Assembly (NCBI GenBank): GCA_006226965.1
Contig: SBGQ01000079.1
Location: forward strand, 1 to 37,665
DNA length: 37,665 bases
Direction: 5' to 3'
Origin: a bacterium
GTDB lineage: Bacteria; Bacteroidota; Rhodothermia; Balneolales; M1805
Position 1 is the first letter of the stretch, and every line of letters begins with the position of its first letter. Both the position numbers and the translations under genes were made by a program. Of the stretch, positions 19,693 to 28,177 are shown piece after piece. The notes under the pieces are model-generated. The model ran no database searches. It saw only the letters and a list, made by a program, of their open reading frames with translations, and had not been told where the DNA came from.

Positions 19693-20082
19693 ATGAAAGC
19701 ATTTAAACCAATCGGTATTACTCATATAACCATTCGTGTGAACAACATGGCGCGCTCCGAAGCATTTTATTCTGATGTTTTAGGCTTTGAAGTGGAGCGA
19801 AAAATGGGAAAAACTATGACCGTTTATCGCATTGGTACAGATTCTCTTGTTTTGGTTGAAGCAGAAACAGGCTATGATACTGTCTCTAGAGATTATCGTG
19901 TAGATCATTTTGGATTTAATGTTGAATCGGCTGCAATCGTAGATCAAATGGCTGCTTGGTGTAAAGAACACGATGTGAGTATAGTAAGCGGCCCGGGAAA
20001 CAGAAAAAACGGTCGTTATTTATTTATCACAGACCCAGACGGGAATATGATTGAACTATTCCACGAAGACCTTAAAGCGTAA
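19693..20082 (+). CDS. VOC (glyoxalase/dioxygenase fold) protein
   Basis: 129 residues, one complete VOC unit of two beta-alpha-beta-beta-beta modules. Likely metal ligands are His11 (GITHITI), His72 (VDHFGF) and Glu121 (NMIELFHE). Family members isomerise or open small substrates or modify antibiotics; which applies here is unknown. The Crp/Fnr gene begins 4 bases after its stop, so the two are co-transcribed, and this VOC protein heads the sulfur locus. An involvement with sulfur or aldehyde adducts is only inferred from position. Confidence 0.85.
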   Translation: MKAFKPIGITHITIRVNNMARSEAFYSDVLGFEVERKMGKTMTVYRIGTDSLVLVEAETGYDTVSRDYRVDHFGFNVESAAIVDQMAAWCKEHDVSIVSGPGNRKNGRYLFITDPDGNMIELFHEDLKA

Positions 20083-20086
20083 TAAA

Positions 20087-20710
20087 ATGCCCGACTCAGG
20101 TAATATTTTTGATTTTAGTACATCCCCTGAATTACGAAAGAAATTGCAATTAAATTCAATTATTAAAACGTATTTGTCAGGGCAGACCATTGTTCAGGAA
20201 AACAGTCATATTCGTTCTATTCCTTTAGTTGCCAAAGGTGCAGTTAAAGTAATTCGTACCGAAGAAGACGGCAGAGAAATTTTGTTGTATTACATAAAGC
20301 CCGGAGAGACGTGTATTATGTCTTTTTTAGGCGGCATTCATCGAGAAACCAGCAAAGTAAAAGCTGAAGTAGAAGAAGATGCAGAAATTTTCTTTTTGCC
20401 AATTGATAAAGTAACGGAGTTCATAAAAGAATATCCTGAATGGCTTGATTATATCTTCAAACTTTACCATAAGCGATTTGAAGAACTACTCGAAGTAATA
20501 AATGCCGTTGCTTTTAAAAAGGTTGACGAACGTTTAATGTTATTATTACAGAAAAAGGTTGAACTTACAGGGCAAAAACTGATTTCCATTACTCATGAAC
20601 AGTTAGCAAATGAATTAGGAACAGCCAGAGTGGTTGTCTCTCGGTTACTAAAGCAGCTTGAAGAAGACGGAATCGTGCGTTTAGGCCGTAATAAAATTGA
20701 AATGGTTTAA
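20087..20710 (+). CDS. Crp/Fnr-family transcriptional regulator
   Basis: 207 residues from the ATG at 20087; a longer frame starts inside the VOC gene and is unlikely. A cyclic-nucleotide-like sensor domain (about 10-130) and a winged HTH (about 168-205, THEQLANELGTARVVVSRLL) are clear. The N-terminal cysteine cluster of FNR is missing; a single Cys76 sits in KPGETCIMS. Related regulators next to TauE/rhodanese/YeeE genes are common in Bacteroidota, and control of this locus is the natural inference. An inverted repeat TCAGCTA/TAGCTGA lies between this gene and the next (20753-20777) and is a candidate operator. Confidence 0.88.
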   Translation: MPDSGNIFDFSTSPELRKKLQLNSIIKTYLSGQTIVQENSHIRSIPLVAKGAVKVIRTEEDGREILLYYIKPGETCIMSFLGGIHRETSKVKAEVEEDAEIFFLPIDKVTEFIKEYPEWLDYIFKLYHKRFEELLEVINAVAFKKVDERLMLLLQKKVELTGQKLISITHEQLANELGTARVVVSRLLKQLEEDGIVRLGRNKIEMV

Positions 20711-20839: not shown

Positions 20840-21637
20840 ATGGATATTGTCGGTTATTTAGCCTCTATACTTATTGGTGTTTCTCTTGGCCTTATTGGCG
20901 GCGGCGGGAGCATCTTAACTGTACCGGTGTTAGTGTACTTATTTTCAGTAAACCCAGTTATGGCAACGGCTTACTCTTTATTTATTGTAGGTTTAACCAG
21001 TGCTGTTGGTTCAGTGAATTATTTCCAACGTGGTTTAGTAAATGTTAAAACTGCAATTATTTTCGGGATTCCATCTATAATAGCGGTGTATTTAACACGT
21101 CACTTTATTATACCTGCAATTCCTTCCGAGGTGTTTACAATCGGGGATTTTGTAGTTACTAAAAGCATTTTGTTGATGGTTCTTTTTGCTGCTCTAATGA
21201 TTGCTGCGTCGTACAGCATGATTAAAAAAGACACAAAAGGCCAGGAAGAAGAGGGTGGCGAACAGAAGTTCAACTATCCGCTCATTTTAATTGAAGGCGC
21301 AGTTGTGGGTATGCTTACCGGCTTAGTAGGAGCCGGAGGCGGATTCCTCATTATCCCTGCTTTAGTGGTACTAAGCAAATTGCCCATGAAAGAAGCAGTA
21401 GGAACATCTTTGGCGATTATTGCGGCTAAATCGTTGCTTGGTTTTACCGGCGACCTTGGCAAGACAGAAATCGACTGGACGTTCTTAGTAATCGTGTCAG
21501 CTTTTGCGATAGCCGGAATCTTTGTCGGTTCGGCATTATCTAAGAAAGTGGACGGTAAAAAATTAAAACCGGCTTTCGGTTGGTTTGTTTTGGTGATGGG
21601 TATTTACATCATCCTAAAAGAAACAGTATTTAAATAG
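20840..21637 (+). CDS. TauE/SafE-family sulfite/sulfonate exporter
   Basis: 265 residues with about eight membrane helices in two repeated halves. Each half carries the family glycine motif: GLIGGGGSILTVP near 17-29 and GLVGAGGGFLIIP in the second half. The family exports sulfite, organosulfonates or related anions across the inner membrane. It is followed after 12 bases by a rhodanese gene and preceded by the Crp regulator. In this setting it probably removes toxic sulfite produced by sulfur oxidation; direction and substrate are inferred. Confidence 0.88.
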   Translation: MDIVGYLASILIGVSLGLIGGGGSILTVPVLVYLFSVNPVMATAYSLFIVGLTSAVGSVNYFQRGLVNVKTAIIFGIPSIIAVYLTRHFIIPAIPSEVFTIGDFVVTKSILLMVLFAALMIAASYSMIKKDTKGQEEEGGEQKFNYPLILIEGAVVGMLTGLVGAGGGFLIIPALVVLSKLPMKEAVGTSLAIIAAKSLLGFTGDLGKTEIDWTFLVIVSAFAIAGIFVGSALSKKVDGKKLKPAFGWFVLVMGIYIILKETVFK

Positions 21638-21649
21638 TCGGTACTGGCT

Positions 21650-22024
21650 ATGAAAAATCAAAAAAAAGTAATTCAAATAAGTTTAACCCTAATTATTGCT
21701 CTAGTTATGTTCAATATTTTTAGTTCAATGTTTGGCTCATCAGATACAGGAAATCTATCTGAAGTAATCGAAAACGGCGCTTTTTTAGTCGATGTTCGTA
21801 CACCTGAAGAGTTTGCAATGGGACATGTTCCCGGTTCAGTGAACATTCCGTTAGATCAAGTTCCTGCTCGTGTGAAGGACTTCAAAGGAAAAGGCGATAT
21901 CGTTGTTTTTTGCCGCACAGGAAATCGTAGCGGACAAGCGAAACGCTTTTTAGAAGCACAAGGAATTGAAAAAATCACAAACGGCGGTTCTTGGCAGAAC
22001 GTAGCGCAACACGCAAAAAAATAG
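21650..22024 (+). CDS. Membrane-anchored single-domain rhodanese
   Basis: 124 residues: an N-terminal membrane anchor (about 8-28), then one rhodanese domain with DVRTPEEFAMGHVPGSVNIP and the active-site loop CRTGNRSG starting at Cys88. Rhodaneses carry sulfane sulfur on this Cys as a persulfide. The anchor orientation suggests the domain faces the periplasm, next to the exported cytochrome, SoxB and DsrE proteins. It lies 12 bases after tauE and is followed by a long multi-part hairpin at 22031-22101. Confidence 0.9.
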   Translation: MKNQKKVIQISLTLIIALVMFNIFSSMFGSSDTGNLSEVIENGAFLVDVRTPEEFAMGHVPGSVNIPLDQVPARVKDFKGKGDIVVFCRTGNRSGQAKRFLEAQGIEKITNGGSWQNVAQHAKK

Positions 22025-22030
22025 CCGGTT

Positions 22031-22101
22031 TCAGGGCAGAGTTCGAGCGAAAAGGTCAATAAGTGCTGATTGGTGCGAGCTTGAACAAAGCCCTGATTTT
22101 T
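22031..22101 (+). ncRNA. Three-tier hairpin after the rhodanese gene
   Basis: An outer stem TCAGGGC/GCCCTGA (22031-22037 with 22090-22096), a 3x3 internal loop, a middle stem GTTCGAGC/GCTTGAAC (22041-22048 with 22079-22086) and an inner stem at 22055-22060/22069-22074, followed by TTTTT. It may be an elaborate terminator or a processed RNA element between the rhodanese and YeeE genes. Confidence 0.5.
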
Positions 22102-22108
22102 AATACTC

Positions 22109-22132
22109 AATTAGGATAAATGAATCCTAATT
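22109..22132 (+). promoter_or_regulatory. Perfect 9-base inverted repeat before yeeE-like gene
   Basis: AATTAGGAT / ATCCTAATT around a 6-base loop AAATGA, 47 bases before the ATG at 22179. It is short and AT-rich, without a T-run. An operator or a leader hairpin are both possible. Confidence 0.4.
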
Positions 22133-22178
22133 CTTTTAAGATACGCTTAGCTTTAATCCTAAAAAATCATCTATTATC

Positions 22179-22748
22179 ATGAATATCTTAGAATTTATTA
22201 CCCAACCTTGGCCGTGGTATGTTGCCGGGCCTTTGATAGGACTTACTGTTCCTGTTTTACTCATCATCGGAAATAAGTCTTTTGGAATTAGTTCTTCATT
22301 AAGACACACTTGTGCGGCTTGTTTTCCTGCTAATATCAAATTCTTCAATTATGATTGGAAGAAAGAGAAATGGAATATGTTCTTTGTTTTGGGAATTTTA
22401 TTAGGTGGAATTTTAACAGCAAACTTTTTATTGAGTTCAGATCCAATTGATATAAATCCTGAATTAAAAGCTGAATTAGCGGCTTATGGAATTACTGAAA
22501 TAAAAGGCTTAGTTCCTGAACAATTATTTAGCTGGGAATTTTTGGCAACACCTAAAGGTCTAATCATGATTGTATTAGGCGGATTCTTAGTGGGCTTTGG
22601 AGCTCGTTATGCCGGCGGTTGTACATCAGGTCATGCCATTATGGGAATTTCTACATTGCAATGGCCGTCTGTAGTTGCTGCTGCATGTTTTATGATTGGC
22701 GGTATTGTGATGGCCAATTTTGTGTTACCCTACATTTTAGCTTTATAA
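22179..22748 (+). CDS. YeeE/YedE-family thiosulfate/sulfur transporter, first half
   Basis: 189 residues with several membrane helices and the family signature [14 protein letters not shown] holding Cys148; further cysteines Cys45 and Cys48 sit in RHTCAACFP. In the fused TsuA-type transporter these cysteines line a pore that relays thiosulfate. Here the protein is split over two adjacent genes, as often in Bacteroidota, with the second half 13 bases downstream. Probably imports thiosulfate or a sulfane sulfur species into the cytoplasm; the substrate is inferred from the family and neighbours. Confidence 0.88.
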
Positions 22749-22761
22749 GGAGACAAGAATT

Positions 22762-23262
22762 ATGCAAACTACTCAAGTACAATCCAAAGAATTCGAAGCA
22801 AGAGCACTTGATTCCATCTGTGTAAACGAGAGTCAATTAGAGCACAAATGGTATCATAATATTAAGTACACCTTAGTTGGTATCGCTTTTGGAATCGTGT
22901 TTATAAAAGCTGAAATCATTAGCTGGTATCGAATTCAGGAAATGTTTCGTTTCCAATCATTCCATATGTACGGAATTATCGGAAGTGCCATTTTAGTTGG
23001 AATGCTTTCTGTTTTGTTGATTAAAAAATTCAATATAAAGACCATTTATGGAGAAGAAATTATTCTCCATCCGAAAGTATTTAATAAAGGTCAAATTTTT
23101 GGCGGACTCATGTTCGGTTTAGGCTGGGCTTTAACAGGTGCTTGTCCGGGACCATTATTTGCTCAAATCGGTTCGGGTGCAACTGTAATTGCCGTTTCTT
23201 TGTTAAGCGCTGTTGCAGGAACATGGGTTTACGGTAAGTTCAGAGATCAATTACCTCATTAA
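22762..23262 (+). CDS. YeeE/YedE-family transporter, second half (DUF6691-like)
   Basis: 166 residues with about four membrane helices and the partner signature GLGWALTGACPGPL holding Cys128. AAGGAG at 22747-22752 overlaps the stop of the first half, pointing to coupled expression. The first 32 residues (Cys20 included) are a hydrophilic extension before the usual start region NIKYTLVGIAFGIVF; no in-frame ATG, GTG or TTG in between allows a shorter start. A strong terminator follows at 23270-23306. Confidence 0.85.
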   Translation: MQTTQVQSKEFEARALDSICVNESQLEHKWYHNIKYTLVGIAFGIVFIKAEIISWYRIQEMFRFQSFHMYGIIGSAILVGMLSVLLIKKFNIKTIYGEEIILHPKVFNKGQIFGGLMFGLGWALTGACPGPLFAQIGSGATVIAVSLLSAVAGTWVYGKFRDQLPH

Positions 23263-23269
23263 TAATTTT

Positions 23270-23306
23270 ATGACTCACTCCATTTCTGGGGTGAGTCATT
23301 TTTTTG
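23270..23306 (+). terminator. Terminator after the YeeE pair
   Basis: A 12-bp stem (23270-23281 with 23288-23299, one G-T pair), a 6-base loop and a T-run. It separates the transport genes from the cytochrome/soxB genes. Confidence 0.9.
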
Positions 23307-23343: not shown

Positions 23344-24327
23344 ATGAAAATGAAAAAAATCAGTTTGGCAATACTGTCGATGAGTTTGGTAGCTCTAATT
23401 GCGTGTAGCCAAAACACGAATAATGAACCATCTACAATAAAAAGTAAGGTTACAACCATTTCAATCAATTCAAATGATGATGATTTATGGGTAGCGCCGT
23501 CTATCGATGAAATCAAAAATCAGGAATTAAAAAAACAAGTTGAATACGGCAAAGAACTGATTGCTCATACCGCAAAATATCTGGGGCCAAATGGTTCAGT
23601 TGCTCAAATCAGTAATGGTTTAAATTGCCAGAATTGCCACTTAGATGCCGGAACAAAAGCATATGGTAATAACTACGGCTCAGTTGCTTCAATGTATCCA
23701 AAATTCAGAGGAAGAAGCGGAAGCGTAGAAAACATGACAAAACGTATTAACGATTGTTTTGAACGTAGCTTAAACGGTACAGGCTTAGATTCTACAAGTA
23801 CTGAAATGCTGGCCATAAAAGCATACATGAATTATATCGGTTCAAATGTTCCAAAGGGTACAAAAGCGAATGGTTCAGGTTTTAAAGCCATTCCTTTTAT
23901 GAACAGACCGGCTGACCCCGCAAAAGGTAAAGACGTATATGTAACGCAATGTCAATCATGTCATCAACCGGATGGAAAAGGATTAATGGCTGAAGCAGGT
24001 AACGAATATATTTATCCGCCGCTTTGGGGAAAACACAGTTATAATGACGGCGCCGGATTAAATCGAGTAAGTAATTTTGCTAAATACGTAAAATACAACA
24101 TGCCTTTGGGTACAACTTACGATAAACCCATACTCACTGACGAGCAGGCATGGGATGTAGCGGCTTTTGTGAATTCACAATTCAGACCGCACATCGAAAC
24201 CCCAAATGATTGGCCGGATTTAACGAAAAAGCCAATCGACGCACCTTACGGACCTTATGCTGACGAATTCTCCGTTAAGCAACACAAATATGGTCCATAT
24301 CAACCTATTCAGGATGCCCGCAAATAA
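23344..24327 (+). CDS. Diheme c-type cytochrome lipoprotein, thiosulfate dehydrogenase (TsdA)-like
   Basis: 327 residues. The lipoprotein signal ends LVALIAC with Cys21. Two haem sites are present: C95QNCH and C203QSCH. The first domain has Cys138 in RINDCFERSLNG, matching the unusual thiolate haem ligand of TsdA and SoxA; the second has Met253 in YNMPLG as a likely ligand. The order of domains and linker fits TsdA, which joins two thiosulfates to tetrathionate and passes electrons to cytochromes. A role in loading sulfur for SoxB (SoxXA-like) is the alternative. It sits directly before soxB, behind a terminator, so a new transcript may start here. Confidence 0.82.
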   Translation: MKMKKISLAILSMSLVALIACSQNTNNEPSTIKSKVTTISINSNDDDLWVAPSIDEIKNQELKKQVEYGKELIAHTAKYLGPNGSVAQISNGLNCQNCHLDAGTKAYGNNYGSVASMYPKFRGRSGSVENMTKRINDCFERSLNGTGLDSTSTEMLAIKAYMNYIGSNVPKGTKANGSGFKAIPFMNRPADPAKGKDVYVTQCQSCHQPDGKGLMAEAGNEYIYPPLWGKHSYNDGAGLNRVSNFAKYVKYNMPLGTTYDKPILTDEQAWDVAAFVNSQFRPHIETPNDWPDLTKKPIDAPYGPYADEFSVKQHKYGPYQPIQDARK

Positions 24328-24362
24328 TGATTGGCTCACTTTTGCATCTAGGGTTGTTTCAA

Positions 24363-24391
24363 AAAGCAGAGAATCTAAGGTACTCTGCTTT
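24363..24391 (+). terminator. Hairpin between the cytochrome and soxB genes
   Basis: AAAGCAGAG / CTCTGCTTT, 9 bp, loop of 11 bases, T-rich but interrupted tail. It could be a partial terminator lowering soxB expression relative to the cytochrome gene. Confidence 0.55.
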
Positions 24392-24429
24392 ATCTATTCT
24401 TAATCATCATTAATCTTTTGGAGTGTAAT

Positions 24430-26118
24430 ATGTCGAACAGACGCGATTTCCTAAAAAAAATTGGACTTGCCGGTGCAGGCGCCGGACTCATGCCGGTTTC
24501 ATCATTTGCAATGGGTTCAAATGAAAAAATTACAGGAACAGAAACAGACAAAAAGAAGGGTAAATTCACTGTTTCCATTCTTCAAACTACGGATGTGCAT
24601 TGTCAGATCCATCCGCATGATGAGTTGTTCTGGGAAAACAACAAAGCGGTTTTCAGAAAAACGGGTGGTTATGCTCATTTAGCAACGTATTTGAAGCAAG
24701 AAAAAGCTAAAAATCCGGAAAATACCTTCATTATTGATACCGGAGATATGTTTCAGGGAAGTGAACTTTCCGTTAAAACCACCGGAAAAGCGATGAGTCC
24801 GATTTTAAATGCCTTGGATTACGATTTGTATTTACCGGGAAACTGGGAAGTAGTGTACTACAAAAAAGCGATGCAAAAACTTTTAGGTTCTTTAAATGCG
24901 CCTAAGGTTTGTGCGAATATGTATCACGATTTAGGCGACGGTAAAAAAGGTGAATTGATTTTTCATCCGTATTACATCTGGAATGTGAATGGTGTTAAAA
25001 TCGGTTTCTTAGGGTACACCGATCATTTAGTTCCCAAGCGACAGTCTCCGAATTATAGTAAAGGCATTATCTACACCAAACCGGAAGAGAATTTAGCGCA
25101 CTATGTTAATGTTTTAAGAGAAGATGAAGGTTGTGCTTATGTAATGGTAATTGCACATCTTGGTTTATCACAGCAATTGCACTTATCAAACATACCGGAA
25201 TGCGAAGGTGTGGATTATATTTTAGGTGGTGATACGCACGAGAGGGTACGCAAACCAATTCAAGGGAAATATGCGAAAGTGGTTGAGCCCGGTGCCTTTG
25301 GTTCTTTTGTCGGAAAACTAGATTTGACAATTGAAAACGGAAAAGTAATTAAAGACGAATATCATTTAGTTGAAATTGATGCCGATACGTACAAAGCTGA
25401 TAAAAAAGTTGAAGCCATCATCAAGGAAAATGAACAACCGTTCGCTGATTCCATTCATAAAGTAATCGGTTACAGTACGATTCCGCTTTACCGTTATTTC
25501 GTGATAGAAAATCCGATTGATACGATGATTTTAGATGCGTTAAAATCTCAATTAACTGATGTTGATATCGTTTTATCAAACGGATTCCGTTTTTGTCCGC
25601 CGAATACAAGTCCTGATAAAACAGGAAATATCCCGATTACAAACGGTTATTTGTATGATATGCTTCCGGTAAACTCTCCGGTAAGAATGGCCACAGTAAA
25701 CGGTAAACAATTGCATGATTGGCTCGAAAAAGAGTTAAATAACGTTTTTGCTGATGACGCTTCCAAACGTTTCGGCGGTTGGGTAATCAAATTCAAAGGC
25801 ATGGAAGTTAAGTTTAAAGCCTTCGAAGAAATGGGAAAACGTGTTCAGGAAATAACAGTAAACGGAAAGCCATTGGATCCGAATAAAGAGTACAAGATTT
25901 CGGCTTGTGAGCGAGATGGTGATCCTGACGATGTATTATGCCGAATCAAAGGTGTGAAAGACGCTAAAAACGCACCGTTTTCTTTGCATGATGCAGTTAC
26001 AAGCTATTTAGCAAAACATTCACCCGTAACGCCGACACCTCCAAAAGCTGCTCAAGCGTTGGATGCTCCTGAGACCTTACTGACTCAGGTTCACGGTGTT
26101 GATTACGCTTTTTATTAA
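24430..26118 (+). CDS. soxB: SoxB-like Tat-exported thiosulfohydrolase (5'-nucleotidase superfamily)
   Basis: 562 residues from the ATG at 24430 (GGAG upstream). The Tat signal is NRRDFLKK followed by a hydrophobic Ala/Gly stretch. The metallophosphatase domain has D55VH, GD at 105-106, GNWE at 137-140, His243 (IAHLG) and GGDTH at 266-270. Trp in place of the catalytic His of GNHE is a feature I associate with SoxB rather than nucleotidases, as is the C-terminal part with MGKRVQEITVNGKPLDP. SoxB cleaves sulfate from SoxY-bound sulfur intermediates in the periplasm with Mn2+. Flanked by TsdA-like cytochrome and DsrE genes; no SoxYZ in the window. Family certain; natural substrate uncertain. 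Confidence 0.8.
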   Translation: MSNRRDFLKKIGLAGAGAGLMPVSSFAMGSNEKITGTETDKKKGKFTVSILQTTDVHCQIHPHDELFWENNKAVFRKTGGYAHLATYLKQEKAKNPENTFIIDTGDMFQGSELSVKTTGKAMSPILNALDYDLYLPGNWEVVYYKKAMQKLLGSLNAPKVCANMYHDLGDGKKGELIFHPYYIWNVNGVKIGFLGYTDHLVPKRQSPNYSKGIIYTKPEENLAHYVNVLREDEGCAYVMVIAHLGLSQQLHLSNIPECEGVDYILGGDTHERVRKPIQGKYAKVVEPGAFGSFVGKLDLTIENGKVIKDEYHLVEIDADTYKADKKVEAIIKENEQPFADSIHKVIGYSTIPLYRYFVIENPIDTMILDALKSQLTDVDIVLSNGFRFCPPNTSPDKTGNIPITNGYLYDMLPVNSPVRMATVNGKQLHDWLEKELNNVFADDASKRFGGWVIKFKGMEVKFKAFEEMGKRVQEITVNGKPLDPNKEYKISACERDGDPDDVLCRIKGVKDAKNAPFSLHDAVTSYLAKHSPVTPTPPKAAQALDAPETLLTQVHGVDYAFY

Positions 26119-26124
26119 AAACTA

Positions 26125-26169
26125 TTCAGGGCTTATCTTACTTTTGCTTACGGTAGGGTAAGTCCTGAG
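26125..26169 (+). other. Long 17-18 bp stem-loop between soxB and dsrE-like gene
   Basis: 26126-26142 pairs with 26152-26168 over 17 bp including four G-T pairs (18 if 26125-26169 is counted), loop TTTGCTTAC. No T-run follows. In RNA this would be a strong intercistronic hairpin, possibly protecting the upstream mRNA. Confidence 0.6.
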
Positions 26170-26197
26170 CTCTAATTCATAAACTAGGTTAGTTACT

Positions 26198-26626
26198 ATG
26201 ATGAAGTTTCTTTTTTTGATTTTGATGAGTACTGCAAGTTTAATCCCTTTTAAATCTTGGGCTCAAGAATCGGCTGAAGAGCCCTATAAGATTGTTTTTC
26301 AATTGGTTTCGGCTGATAGTACGGTTCATAAATCATTCTTAAAACAACTAAAAAACATTTTAGCTGCCGACCCGCGAACAGATATTAAAGTAGTTTGCCA
26401 TGGACCCGGGATTCAATTAATCATGAAATCAAAATCTACTCAACTTGATAAAATTAGAGAGTTCAGCAAAAAAGGAGTTGAGTTTGTAGCCTGCGAGAAC
26501 ACAATGAAGGGCAGAGGGATTCCGAAAGAAGATATTTTGGAAATCGCCACTTACGCAGAAGCAGGAATTCTGCACATAGTTAAACTGCAAAGAGAAGGCT
26601 ATGCCTACATAAAAGCAGGATATTAA
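26198..26626 (+). CDS. Periplasmic DsrE/DsrF-like protein
   Basis: 142 residues with a signal peptide (about 1-22, ending SWA). The DsrE fold shows the segment IKVVCHGPGIQLI with Cys67 and FVACENTMKGRG with Cys99, the usual positions for sulfur-carrying cysteines. DsrE-type proteins accept and pass on sulfane sulfur; an exported one next to SoxB and a membrane rhodanese suggests a carrier for periplasmic persulfide. If SoxYZ is truly missing from the genome this is a candidate substitute, but that is only inference. Confidence 0.82.
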   Translation: MMKFLFLILMSTASLIPFKSWAQESAEEPYKIVFQLVSADSTVHKSFLKQLKNILAADPRTDIKVVCHGPGIQLIMKSKSTQLDKIREFSKKGVEFVACENTMKGRGIPKEDILEIATYAEAGILHIVKLQREGYAYIKAGY

Positions 26627-26749
26627 ATATGTGCAAGAGAAATCGTCGGTGTTGTAATAAGGTGCGTATTCCGTAGTTGTTTTGCTGATATTAATTAAGC
26701 AGCAATTTTAGAATTTCATCAACCTAAAACCCTATTTACTAAATTTATT

Positions 26750-28177
26750 ATGATGCAATCATTACGTATTGTAGCACTCTTTGTGTATTTGTTTTTTCCT
26801 GTAATTTTATTTGCTCAACATCAGGAAGTGAGCGAAGATCCGGATTTGTGGCGCGGACACAAAATGGAAGCAGAAGATTCAACCGCTTTAATTCATGCCT
26901 TTAAAACCGGAAAAGTAAGCGGACATTTTCGCCATATGATTATGGCAACTCAAAATGAAGGTGATTTAACCGATTATTTTGCGTTTGCTAGCGGTGGTGG
27001 TATTCGATACGAAACCAATCGCTTTTATGGTTTTAATGTTATTGTAAGCGGATTTTTCATTTTTAATAATTACTCAACTGATTTGGGTAAACGAGACCCG
27101 CAAACCAATGCTATCAATCGTTATGAAATTGGACTTTTTGATATTGAAGATCCTCATAATACATCTGATATAGACCGTTTGGAAGAGTTGTTGGTTGAAT
27201 ACACTACTGAACATTCAAAAACTACTTTCGGAAAGCAGTTGGTTAATACTCCTTTTATCAATTTGCAAGATGGCAGAATGCGTCCGACTGGTGTTGAAGG
27301 AATCTGGCACGAACAAAAAGCCGGGGCACATTCCTTTCAGTTGGGATGGTTGTATTATATGTCTCCCAGAAGTACAACGGAATGGTATGGAGTAGGAGAG
27401 TCAATTGGCTTATTCCCGACCGGTAAAAACCCTGACGGAACAGTTTCTGAGTATGAAGGAAATTTGGAAAGCAAAGGGATTGCCGTTGCAAATTGGAATT
27501 ACACAGGTGTAAAACACCTCAAAGTAGATGTATGGAATTATTGGGTTGAAAATATTATTAACACGGGAATGGTTCAGCTTGAATACAGCATACCGACACA
27601 TAGCGGTTCAACGTGGTTAACAGGTCTACAAATTACGCGTCAAGATGCCATTAACCACGGCGGAAATGAAGATGAGGCCAAAACCTATATTGAAAAAGGT
27701 GCTCATTCTTGGGTCTTGAGTACACGTTTAGGGTATAAAACGCAACGTTGGAATTCCAGTTTAAACTATACGCGAATTACTGCAGACGGACGTTTTGTGT
27801 TTCCTCGTGAGTGGGGGCGTGAGCCATTCTACACATTTTTGCCTCGGGAGAGAAATGAAGGTGCAGGAGATGTTCATGCCGTTGTAGCCAAAACCATGTA
27901 TAAACCGAAAGAATCACATTGGGATACAGAACTCGCTTTAGGCTATTATCATTTGCCTGATGTTACAGATACTGAGTTGAATAAATATGGTTTACCTTCG
28001 TATTGGCAAACGTATGTTGATGCCAGTTATCATTTTGAAGGCTTTCTAAAGGGCACTGAAGTGCATTTTATGTGGGTTTCGAAATGGAATGCCGGAGAGG
28101 CCAATATCAATTTGAGTTCTATAATTAATAAAGTGAACATGAATCACTTTAGCGTTATTGTGAACTATCATTTTTAA
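26750..28177 (+). CDS. OprD-family outer-membrane porin
   Basis: 475 residues. A signal peptide (about 1-22, ending LFAQ) is followed by alternating beta strands and ends in VNYHF, a typical outer-membrane beta-signal with terminal Phe. The N-terminal segment AFKTGKVSGHFRHMIMATQN and the LVEYTTEHSKTTFGKQLVN region resemble OprD-type porins, which pass small acids and other anions. It is the last gene of the sulfur locus and is closed by a terminator; it probably lets thiosulfate or another sulfur anion into the periplasm. Confidence 0.78.
   Translation: MMQSLRIVALFVYLFFPVILFAQHQEVSEDPDLWRGHKMEAEDSTALIHAFKTGKVSGHFRHMIMATQNEGDLTDYFAFASGGGIRYETNRFYGFNVIVSGFFIFNNYSTDLGKRDPQTNAINRYEIGLFDIEDPHNTSDIDRLEELLVEYTTEHSKTTFGKQLVNTPFINLQDGRMRPTGVEGIWHEQKAGAHSFQLGWLYYMSPRSTTEWYGVGESIGLFPTGKNPDGTVSEYEGNLESKGIAVANWNYTGVKHLKVDVWNYWVENIINTGMVQLEYSIPTHSGSTWLTGLQITRQDAINHGGNEDEAKTYIEKGAHSWVLSTRLGYKTQRWNSSLNYTRITADGRFVFPREWGREPFYTFLPRERNEGAGDVHAVVAKTMYKPKESHWDTELALGYYHLPDVTDTELNKYGLPSYWQTYVDASYHFEGFLKGTEVHFMWVSKWNAGEANINLSSIINKVNMNHFSVIVNYHF

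Follow-up and report, generated by a model that had tools for sequence, protein, structure and literature searches.

A SoxYZ-less gene cassette predicted to oxidise thiosulfate via tetrathionate, most likely acquired horizontally by a Balneolales bacterium

The window analysed here is the whole 37,665-nucleotide stretch of contig SBGQ01000079.1 (assembly GCA_006226965.1), from a bacterium of the order Balneolales. Within it lies a gene cassette that we read as a horizontally acquired system for thiosulfate oxidation via tetrathionate, operating without the carrier protein SoxYZ, and we put the probability of this reading at about 0.55. At its core are four adjoining genes on the plus strand, all of which stand where a preliminary description of this DNA had placed them, and whose coordinates look like those of a transcription unit (23344–28177).

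23344..24327, + strand: TsdA-type diheme cytochrome, probable lipoprotein
24430..26118, + strand: SoxB-like dimetal hydrolase with Tat-type export, GNWE clade (alternative start codon TTG at 24418)
26198..26626, + strand: exported protein of the DsrE family with a single conserved Cys, Cys99 (Pfam DsrE, 41 bits; signal peptide)
26750..28177, + strand: OprD-like outer-membrane porin

The porin assignment, also made in the preliminary description, was borne out by a Pfam OprD match of 26.3 bits, barely above the cut-off of 25.

The SoxB-like hydrolase

The hydrolase had been described as Tat-exported, SoxB-like and carrying a GNWE motif, and each of these features was recovered. The protein begins with a Tat-type sequence (RRDFL), GNWE occupies residues 137–140, and the NCBIfam SoxB model (TIGR04486) matches at 258.5 bits, a score under the curated cut-off of 550 and above those of the nucleotidase models. 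In a maximum-likelihood tree, the window hydrolase falls in a clade of 20 GNWE proteins with support of 100/100, separate from three other groups: canonical SoxB (100/100), a large signal-less family with the motif HW[ED] (100/99), and the nucleotidases (99/97), among which the preliminary description had allowed that it might be found. Judged by eye, the GNWE proteins begin with Tat-type or lipoprotein-type signals, and none is visible in the HW[ED] proteins.

The active-site residues agree with the tree. Nucleotidases carry GNH[DE] with a catalytic His and Asp. The SoxB, HWE and GNWE groups alike have Trp for the catalytic His and are without the Asp. They also have Ser383 and Arg387 in common, two residues of the window hydrolase that are absent from nucleotidases. 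Where nucleotidases have the His–Asp dyad, the window hydrolase has W139 and V142, with Trp and either Val or Ile at these positions throughout the clade. Positions 138 and 268, which alignment with UshA and SoxB suggests are metal-site residues, are His/His in SoxB and the HWE proteins and Asn/Asp in the GNWE clade (one member has Gly for Asp). Because of this Asn and Asp pair, the second metal site of the GNWE clade is predicted to be unlike both other kinds. The exceptional member, locus L007 (G293:C32), has its Gly within the GDTHER motif, perhaps through a sequencing error or the loss of a metal ligand.

An AlphaFold2 model of the hydrolase (pLDDT 85, pTM 0.86) found its best structural match in Thermus thermophilus SoxB (E = 1e-39, TM = 0.79). 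Nucleotidases matched almost as well, and the identity of the enzyme is therefore not settled by its fold. A nucleotidase identity was set aside on the active-site residues and the tree. We consider it very improbable that the protein is an ordinary phosphoesterase of the 5'-nucleotidase family lying near sulfur genes by chance: the fold is the same, Asn138 is kept as in nucleotidases, and NCBI labels the relatives ‘bifunctional metallophosphatase/5'-nucleotidase’, yet clade-wide it is Trp and Val or Ile that stand where nucleotidases have the catalytic His and Asp, the clade is a separate one, and its sulfur-gene neighbours recur. On its sequence, the hydrolase belongs to a distinct exported SoxB-like branch that is neither nucleotidase nor canonical SoxB. 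This branch and its altered metal site are new; the type of pathway is already known.

The wider family offers several further observations. The HWE-type SoxB-like proteins (L073–L152) are very widespread, with members in Alphaproteobacteria, Bacillota, Chloroflexota and archaea; the GTDB representatives contain 577 or more candidate loci. Genes for persulfide dioxygenase, TauE or YeeE are frequent neighbours, and the proteins are commonly annotated as nucleotidases. No Erythrobacter appears among the HWE matches listed from these representatives, and a sphingomonad plasmid relative (L058) encodes an HWE-type protein. A GNWD-type relative on a Natrinema plasmid (L071:3863-5791) lies beside rhodanese and TauE genes, and similar proteins are found on other haloarchaeal plasmids.

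The TsdA-type cytochrome and the search for Sox proteins

The diheme cytochrome had been credited with a Cys ligand of TsdA/SoxA type. The ligand and two CxxCH motifs are indeed present, and the affiliation narrows to TsdA because the protein scores 150 bits against the Allochromatium vinosum TsdA structures in the PDB and 38 bits against SoxA; the SoxA identity was dropped. The Cys ligand (in DCFER) and the Met ligand (in NMPLG) align with those of TsdA, and the signal contains a lipobox-like LIAC. We therefore predict a TsdA-type thiosulfate dehydrogenase/tetrathionate reductase.

TsdA is bidirectional, and that of Campylobacter jejuni is faster at tetrathionate reduction than at thiosulfate oxidation (PMC6879331). 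The window cytochrome has the C. jejuni arrangement at heme 2, an Asn–Met pair, which speaks for a reductive or detoxifying system where TsdA would use tetrathionate as an electron acceptor and the SoxB-like enzyme would hydrolyse thiosulfonates, for example sulfocysteine or glutathione thiosulfonate. We regard this as improbable, because the clusters include genes for a persulfide dioxygenase, a sulfite exporter and a sulfur importer, a combination indicating that sulfane sulfur is oxidised.

SoxB normally needs the carrier protein SoxYZ. The preliminary description had noted that SoxYZ is missing from the window, and this proved true of the entire genome (3.78 Mb in 184 contigs, completeness 100%), with no soxYZ pair found elsewhere. 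SoxY gave no match in the genome, using a search that was positive in 47 of 394 genomes sampled from the phylum; SoxZ gave no match either, in a search that had no positive control. There was no match at all to SoxC in the genome, and nothing above cut-off for SoxA (best 35 bits against a cut-off of 110, at the TsdA gene itself) or SoxX (best 27 against 61). Apart from the window gene, the SoxB model matches one gene in the genome, an ordinary nucleotidase-like one on contig 77 that encodes GNHE.

GNWE proteins are encoded in 18 of the 394 phylum genomes, and none of these carriers has SoxY. As statistical evidence of mutual exclusion this was rejected, the zero overlap not being significant (P = 0.11). 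It is extremely improbable that SoxYZ is present and was missed, through an assembly gap or divergent sequence, and that the hydrolase is a divergent true SoxB. The division of the genome into 184 contigs and the uncontrolled SoxZ search leave some room for this; set against them are the completeness, the lack of SoxY in all 18 carriers of a sample with 47 positives, and a hydrolase score far under the SoxB cut-off.

Recurrence, neighbouring genes and origin of the cassette

The preliminary description asked whether the cluster recurs in related genomes without soxYZ, and we found it again in other genomes that lack SoxY. We compared 21 GNWE loci, comprising the window, three plasmids and 17 genomes, with flanks mostly of 8–10 kb. 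Within 3 kb of the GNWE gene, TsdA occurs in 13 of the 21, an OprD-like porin in 11, and a DsrE of either type in 12. Across the phylum sample, TsdA is encoded by 13 of 18 carriers and 30 of the 376 other genomes (Fisher p ∼3e-10) and, counted by genus, by 8 of 11 carrier genera and 14 of 159 others (p ∼3e-6); neither value is corrected for relatedness.

Upstream of the cytochrome gene, and on the same strand, lie further sulfur-related genes and a regulator.

20051..20710, + strand: Crp/Fnr-type regulator (Pfam cNMP_binding and HTH_Crp_2)
20840..21637, + strand: TauE/SafE sulfite exporter-like membrane protein (Pfam TauE, 158 bits)
21650..22024, + strand: membrane-anchored single-domain rhodanese, active-site CRTGNR (Pfam Rhodanese; N-terminal hydrophobic segment)
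22179..22748, + strand: YeeE/YedE half-transporter 1 (Pfam Sulf_transp; NCBIfam TsuA-related, under cut-off)
22762..23262, + strand: YeeE/YedE half-transporter 2, DUF6691 type (Pfam Sulf_transp and DUF6691)
23270..23299, + strand: intrinsic-terminator-like hairpin, 13 pairs followed by a T run (pattern scan; a consensus match only)

The hairpin sits just upstream of the cytochrome gene, between the transporter half and the cytochrome–porin half of the locus. We read the sulfur genes at 20840–23262 as part of the same system as the cytochrome–porin genes. Their counterparts recur in the comparison, with TauE within 10 kb of the GNWE gene in 13 of 21 loci and a persulfide dioxygenase of the metallo-β-lactamase (MBL)–rhodanese type within the same distance in 12; YeeE pairs are also recurrent. 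The Crp/Fnr-type gene is a probable local regulator, and genes resembling it (36–37%) lie close to the clusters at L032 and L035.

Runella slithyformis and R. rosea have the full gene set on plasmids, and a Pontibacter plasmid has a partial set, these being the three close carriers of the GNWE gene that plasmid searches returned; the viral contigs searched contained no relatives of the gene. A literature search for thiosulfate use by R. slithyformis returned nothing relevant. The cassette is a mobile gene set in Bacteroidota-type bacteria, and the window copy itself was most likely acquired horizontally. Only one of 129 genomes of the window's order encodes a GNWE protein, namely the window's own (the other match there is of the HWE type), and the closest relatives of this protein, at 72–74% identity, lie outside the window's class. 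The flanking lnt gene is normal in this respect, having its best matches (about 39–47% identity) in the window's own order, and the three observations together point to transfer of the cassette. A contaminant contig was ruled out by the affinity of lnt and by the GC content, which is uniform along the contig.

The predicted pathway and its relation to known systems

In the pathway described next, the substrate, the way TsdA runs and all the transfers and transport steps are inferred. Thiosulfate would enter through the OprD-like porin, and the periplasmic TsdA-type cytochrome would join two thiosulfates into tetrathionate. The Tat-exported hydrolase would then act on tetrathionate, or on a thiosulfonate formed from it, by cutting off a terminal sulfonate as sulfate. 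The sulfane sulfur left behind may pass to DsrE (at Cys99) and the rhodanese and be imported by the YeeE/YedE pair. In the cytoplasm, an MBL-rhodanese persulfide dioxygenase could oxidise the sulfane sulfur to sulfite for export by TauE. The window genome encodes one such dioxygenase on contig 176 (L168:8808-10214), outside the cluster; in relatives the gene is clustered. The reduced, SoxYZ-less thiosulfate-oxidation route envisaged in the preliminary description is thereby supported as a prediction, given a genome without soxYZ and a hydrolase outside the nucleotidase clade.

The route is less new than that description suggested, because a TsdA–SoxB pathway has been published for Erythrobacter flavus 21-3. 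This bacterium is without the Sox complex, and deletion of either tsdA or soxB nearly stops the formation of sulfur globules; in the soxB mutant, tetrathionate rises and zero-valent sulfur was not found in the medium (PMC7608252). The same authors list Bacteroidetes among the carriers of both genes (PMC7608252), and a sediment survey reports genomes with SoxB and TsdA and no other Sox genes (PMC12345210). A TsdA and SoxB route independent of the Sox complex is already known. For the import step, sulfur uptake has been shown for SoxT1A, a YeeE-like protein (PMC11582611).

Several findings weigh against our reading of the cassette as a system for thiosulfate oxidation via tetrathionate. Five of the 18 carriers have no TsdA, and four of these have DoxX, not DoxD, and a divergent DsrE beside the GNWE gene. 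Three loci (L028–L030) have none of the other cassette genes nearby, with TsdA elsewhere in their genomes. An MBL-rhodanese dioxygenase of the window's type is present in most genomes of its order, and since it is so common there, its occurrence in the window genome carries no particular weight. The Asn/Asp metal site may indicate another substrate. Finally, the function of the GNWE proteins is a prediction from sequence, and the SoxB of E. flavus (D0Y83_01365, CP032228) comes from a genome outside the collections searched and is compared with them here by gene content.

As a separate observation, where TsdA is absent, a DoxX membrane protein and a divergent exported DsrE were seen (L027:1-399, L035:11000-11859 and L042–L044), their genes adjacent and apparently fused in Pontibacter. 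The pair is possibly an alternative feed for the hydrolase. We did not take DoxX at these loci to prove that a DoxD-type protein makes tetrathionate there, as the proteins match Pfam DoxX and not DoxD.

The preliminary description also suggested that the DsrE protein or the rhodanese may serve as the carrier, and gave DsrE a periplasmic location and two Cys. The signal peptide and two Cys are present; of the two, Cys99 is conserved in all 36 aligned DsrE sequences and Cys67 is not, which rules out a pair of catalytic Cys. The carrier role was not established. In eight of the 21 loci the retrieved flanks contain no DsrE gene, for which reason DsrE is not favoured as an obligatory carrier, and no carrier is required in the Erythrobacter pathway, where tetrathionate itself is the proposed substrate of SoxB.

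An alternative that we consider unlikely makes DsrE a covalent substitute for SoxYZ: tetrathionate made by TsdA would load Cys99 as a Cys-S-thiosulfonate, the SoxB-like enzyme would free sulfate from it, and DsrE would hold the persulfide for transfer. Its precedent is DsrE3A of Metallosphaera cuprina, which with tetrathionate forms a Cys-S-thiosulfonate that is passed on, the later release of the sulfonate being unexplained (PMC4175335). That DsrE3A is cytoplasmic and has two reactive Cys speaks against this alternative, as does the action of canonical SoxB on the SoxY arm. SoxY too can be loaded by tetrathionate, and the window DsrE is exported, adjoins the hydrolase gene and has one invariant Cys. 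A divergent DsrE lies 3–43 bp from the GNWE gene in four loci, and in Methanoculleus a DsrE gene lies directly 3' of a related SoxB-like gene. However, among the eight loci without DsrE, L034, L036, L040 and L041 keep TsdA next to the GNWE gene. As a substitute for SoxYZ, DsrE is possible and, by analogy, chemically plausible, but not obligatory.

Broadened to the family, the same idea is quite doubtful: exported SoxB-like enzymes with the Asn/Asp second metal site would cut the sulfonate from a DsrE Cys-S-thiosulfonate loaded by TsdA-made tetrathionate, a single-Cys DsrE would replace SoxYZ, and the signal-less SoxB-like proteins and DsrE of methanogens would form a cytoplasmic version. SoxB-like proteins that have no signal and carry the SoxB-type motif HWE were seen in Methanoculleus and other archaeal contigs (L090, L091, L092, L095, L106 and L108), with a DsrE-family gene encoding a conserved Cys directly or closely 3' of the SoxB-like gene (about 10000–11770 in L090 and L091). 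On a plasmid of Methylosinus trichosporium OB3b (L062:2689-5333), two DsrE-family genes lie 3' of a canonical soxB and soxZ.

If thiosulfate oxidation via tetrathionate is the correct reading, its SoxYZ-less form would be a mobile trait of heterotrophic Bacteroidota-type bacteria, one masked by the 5'-nucleotidase annotation of its key enzyme, and its carriers would be overlooked in surveys based on counts of soxB or soxY. The cassette would then provide a testable case for the action of a SoxB-type enzyme without a carrier, and a natural metal-site variant bearing on what turns a dimetal phosphoesterase into a sulfonate hydrolase.

Compared with canonical SoxB (TIGR04486; T. thermophilus 2wdc, Paracoccus), the window hydrolase has the same fold, Tat export, Trp for the catalytic His and Ser/Arg signature, and differs in Asn138 and Asp268 for His/His, in Arg447 for Gln, in the lack of the HWE motif, in its own clade and an identity of 21–22% to 2wdc, and in a system without SoxYZ or SoxAX. 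With the 5'-nucleotidase/UshA family it shares the fold and dimetal scaffold, but not the catalytic His–Asp dyad. The cytochrome resembles A. vinosum and C. jejuni TsdA over both heme domains, with two CxxCH hemes, a Cys ligand at heme 1 and a Met ligand at heme 2; it differs in the Asn that precedes the Met (shared with C. jejuni TsdA), its probable lipoprotein nature and a cluster without TsdB. The window DsrE shares its family and a tetrathionate-linked chemistry, as predicted here, with the DsrE3A–TusA thiosulfonate transfer of M. cuprina (PMC4175335), although DsrE3A is a cytoplasmic protein with TusA as partner and the window protein is exported with one conserved Cys. Closest in outline is the TsdA–SoxB–Sdo pathway of E. 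flavus (PMC7608252), which likewise combines TsdA and a SoxB-family protein with no Sox multienzyme complex, and for whose genome a sulfite exporter is mentioned; its MBL-rhodanese sulfur dioxygenase has a possible counterpart in the gene on contig 176 of the window genome, outside the cluster, and the window cassette adds DsrE, the OprD-like porin and the YeeE pair.

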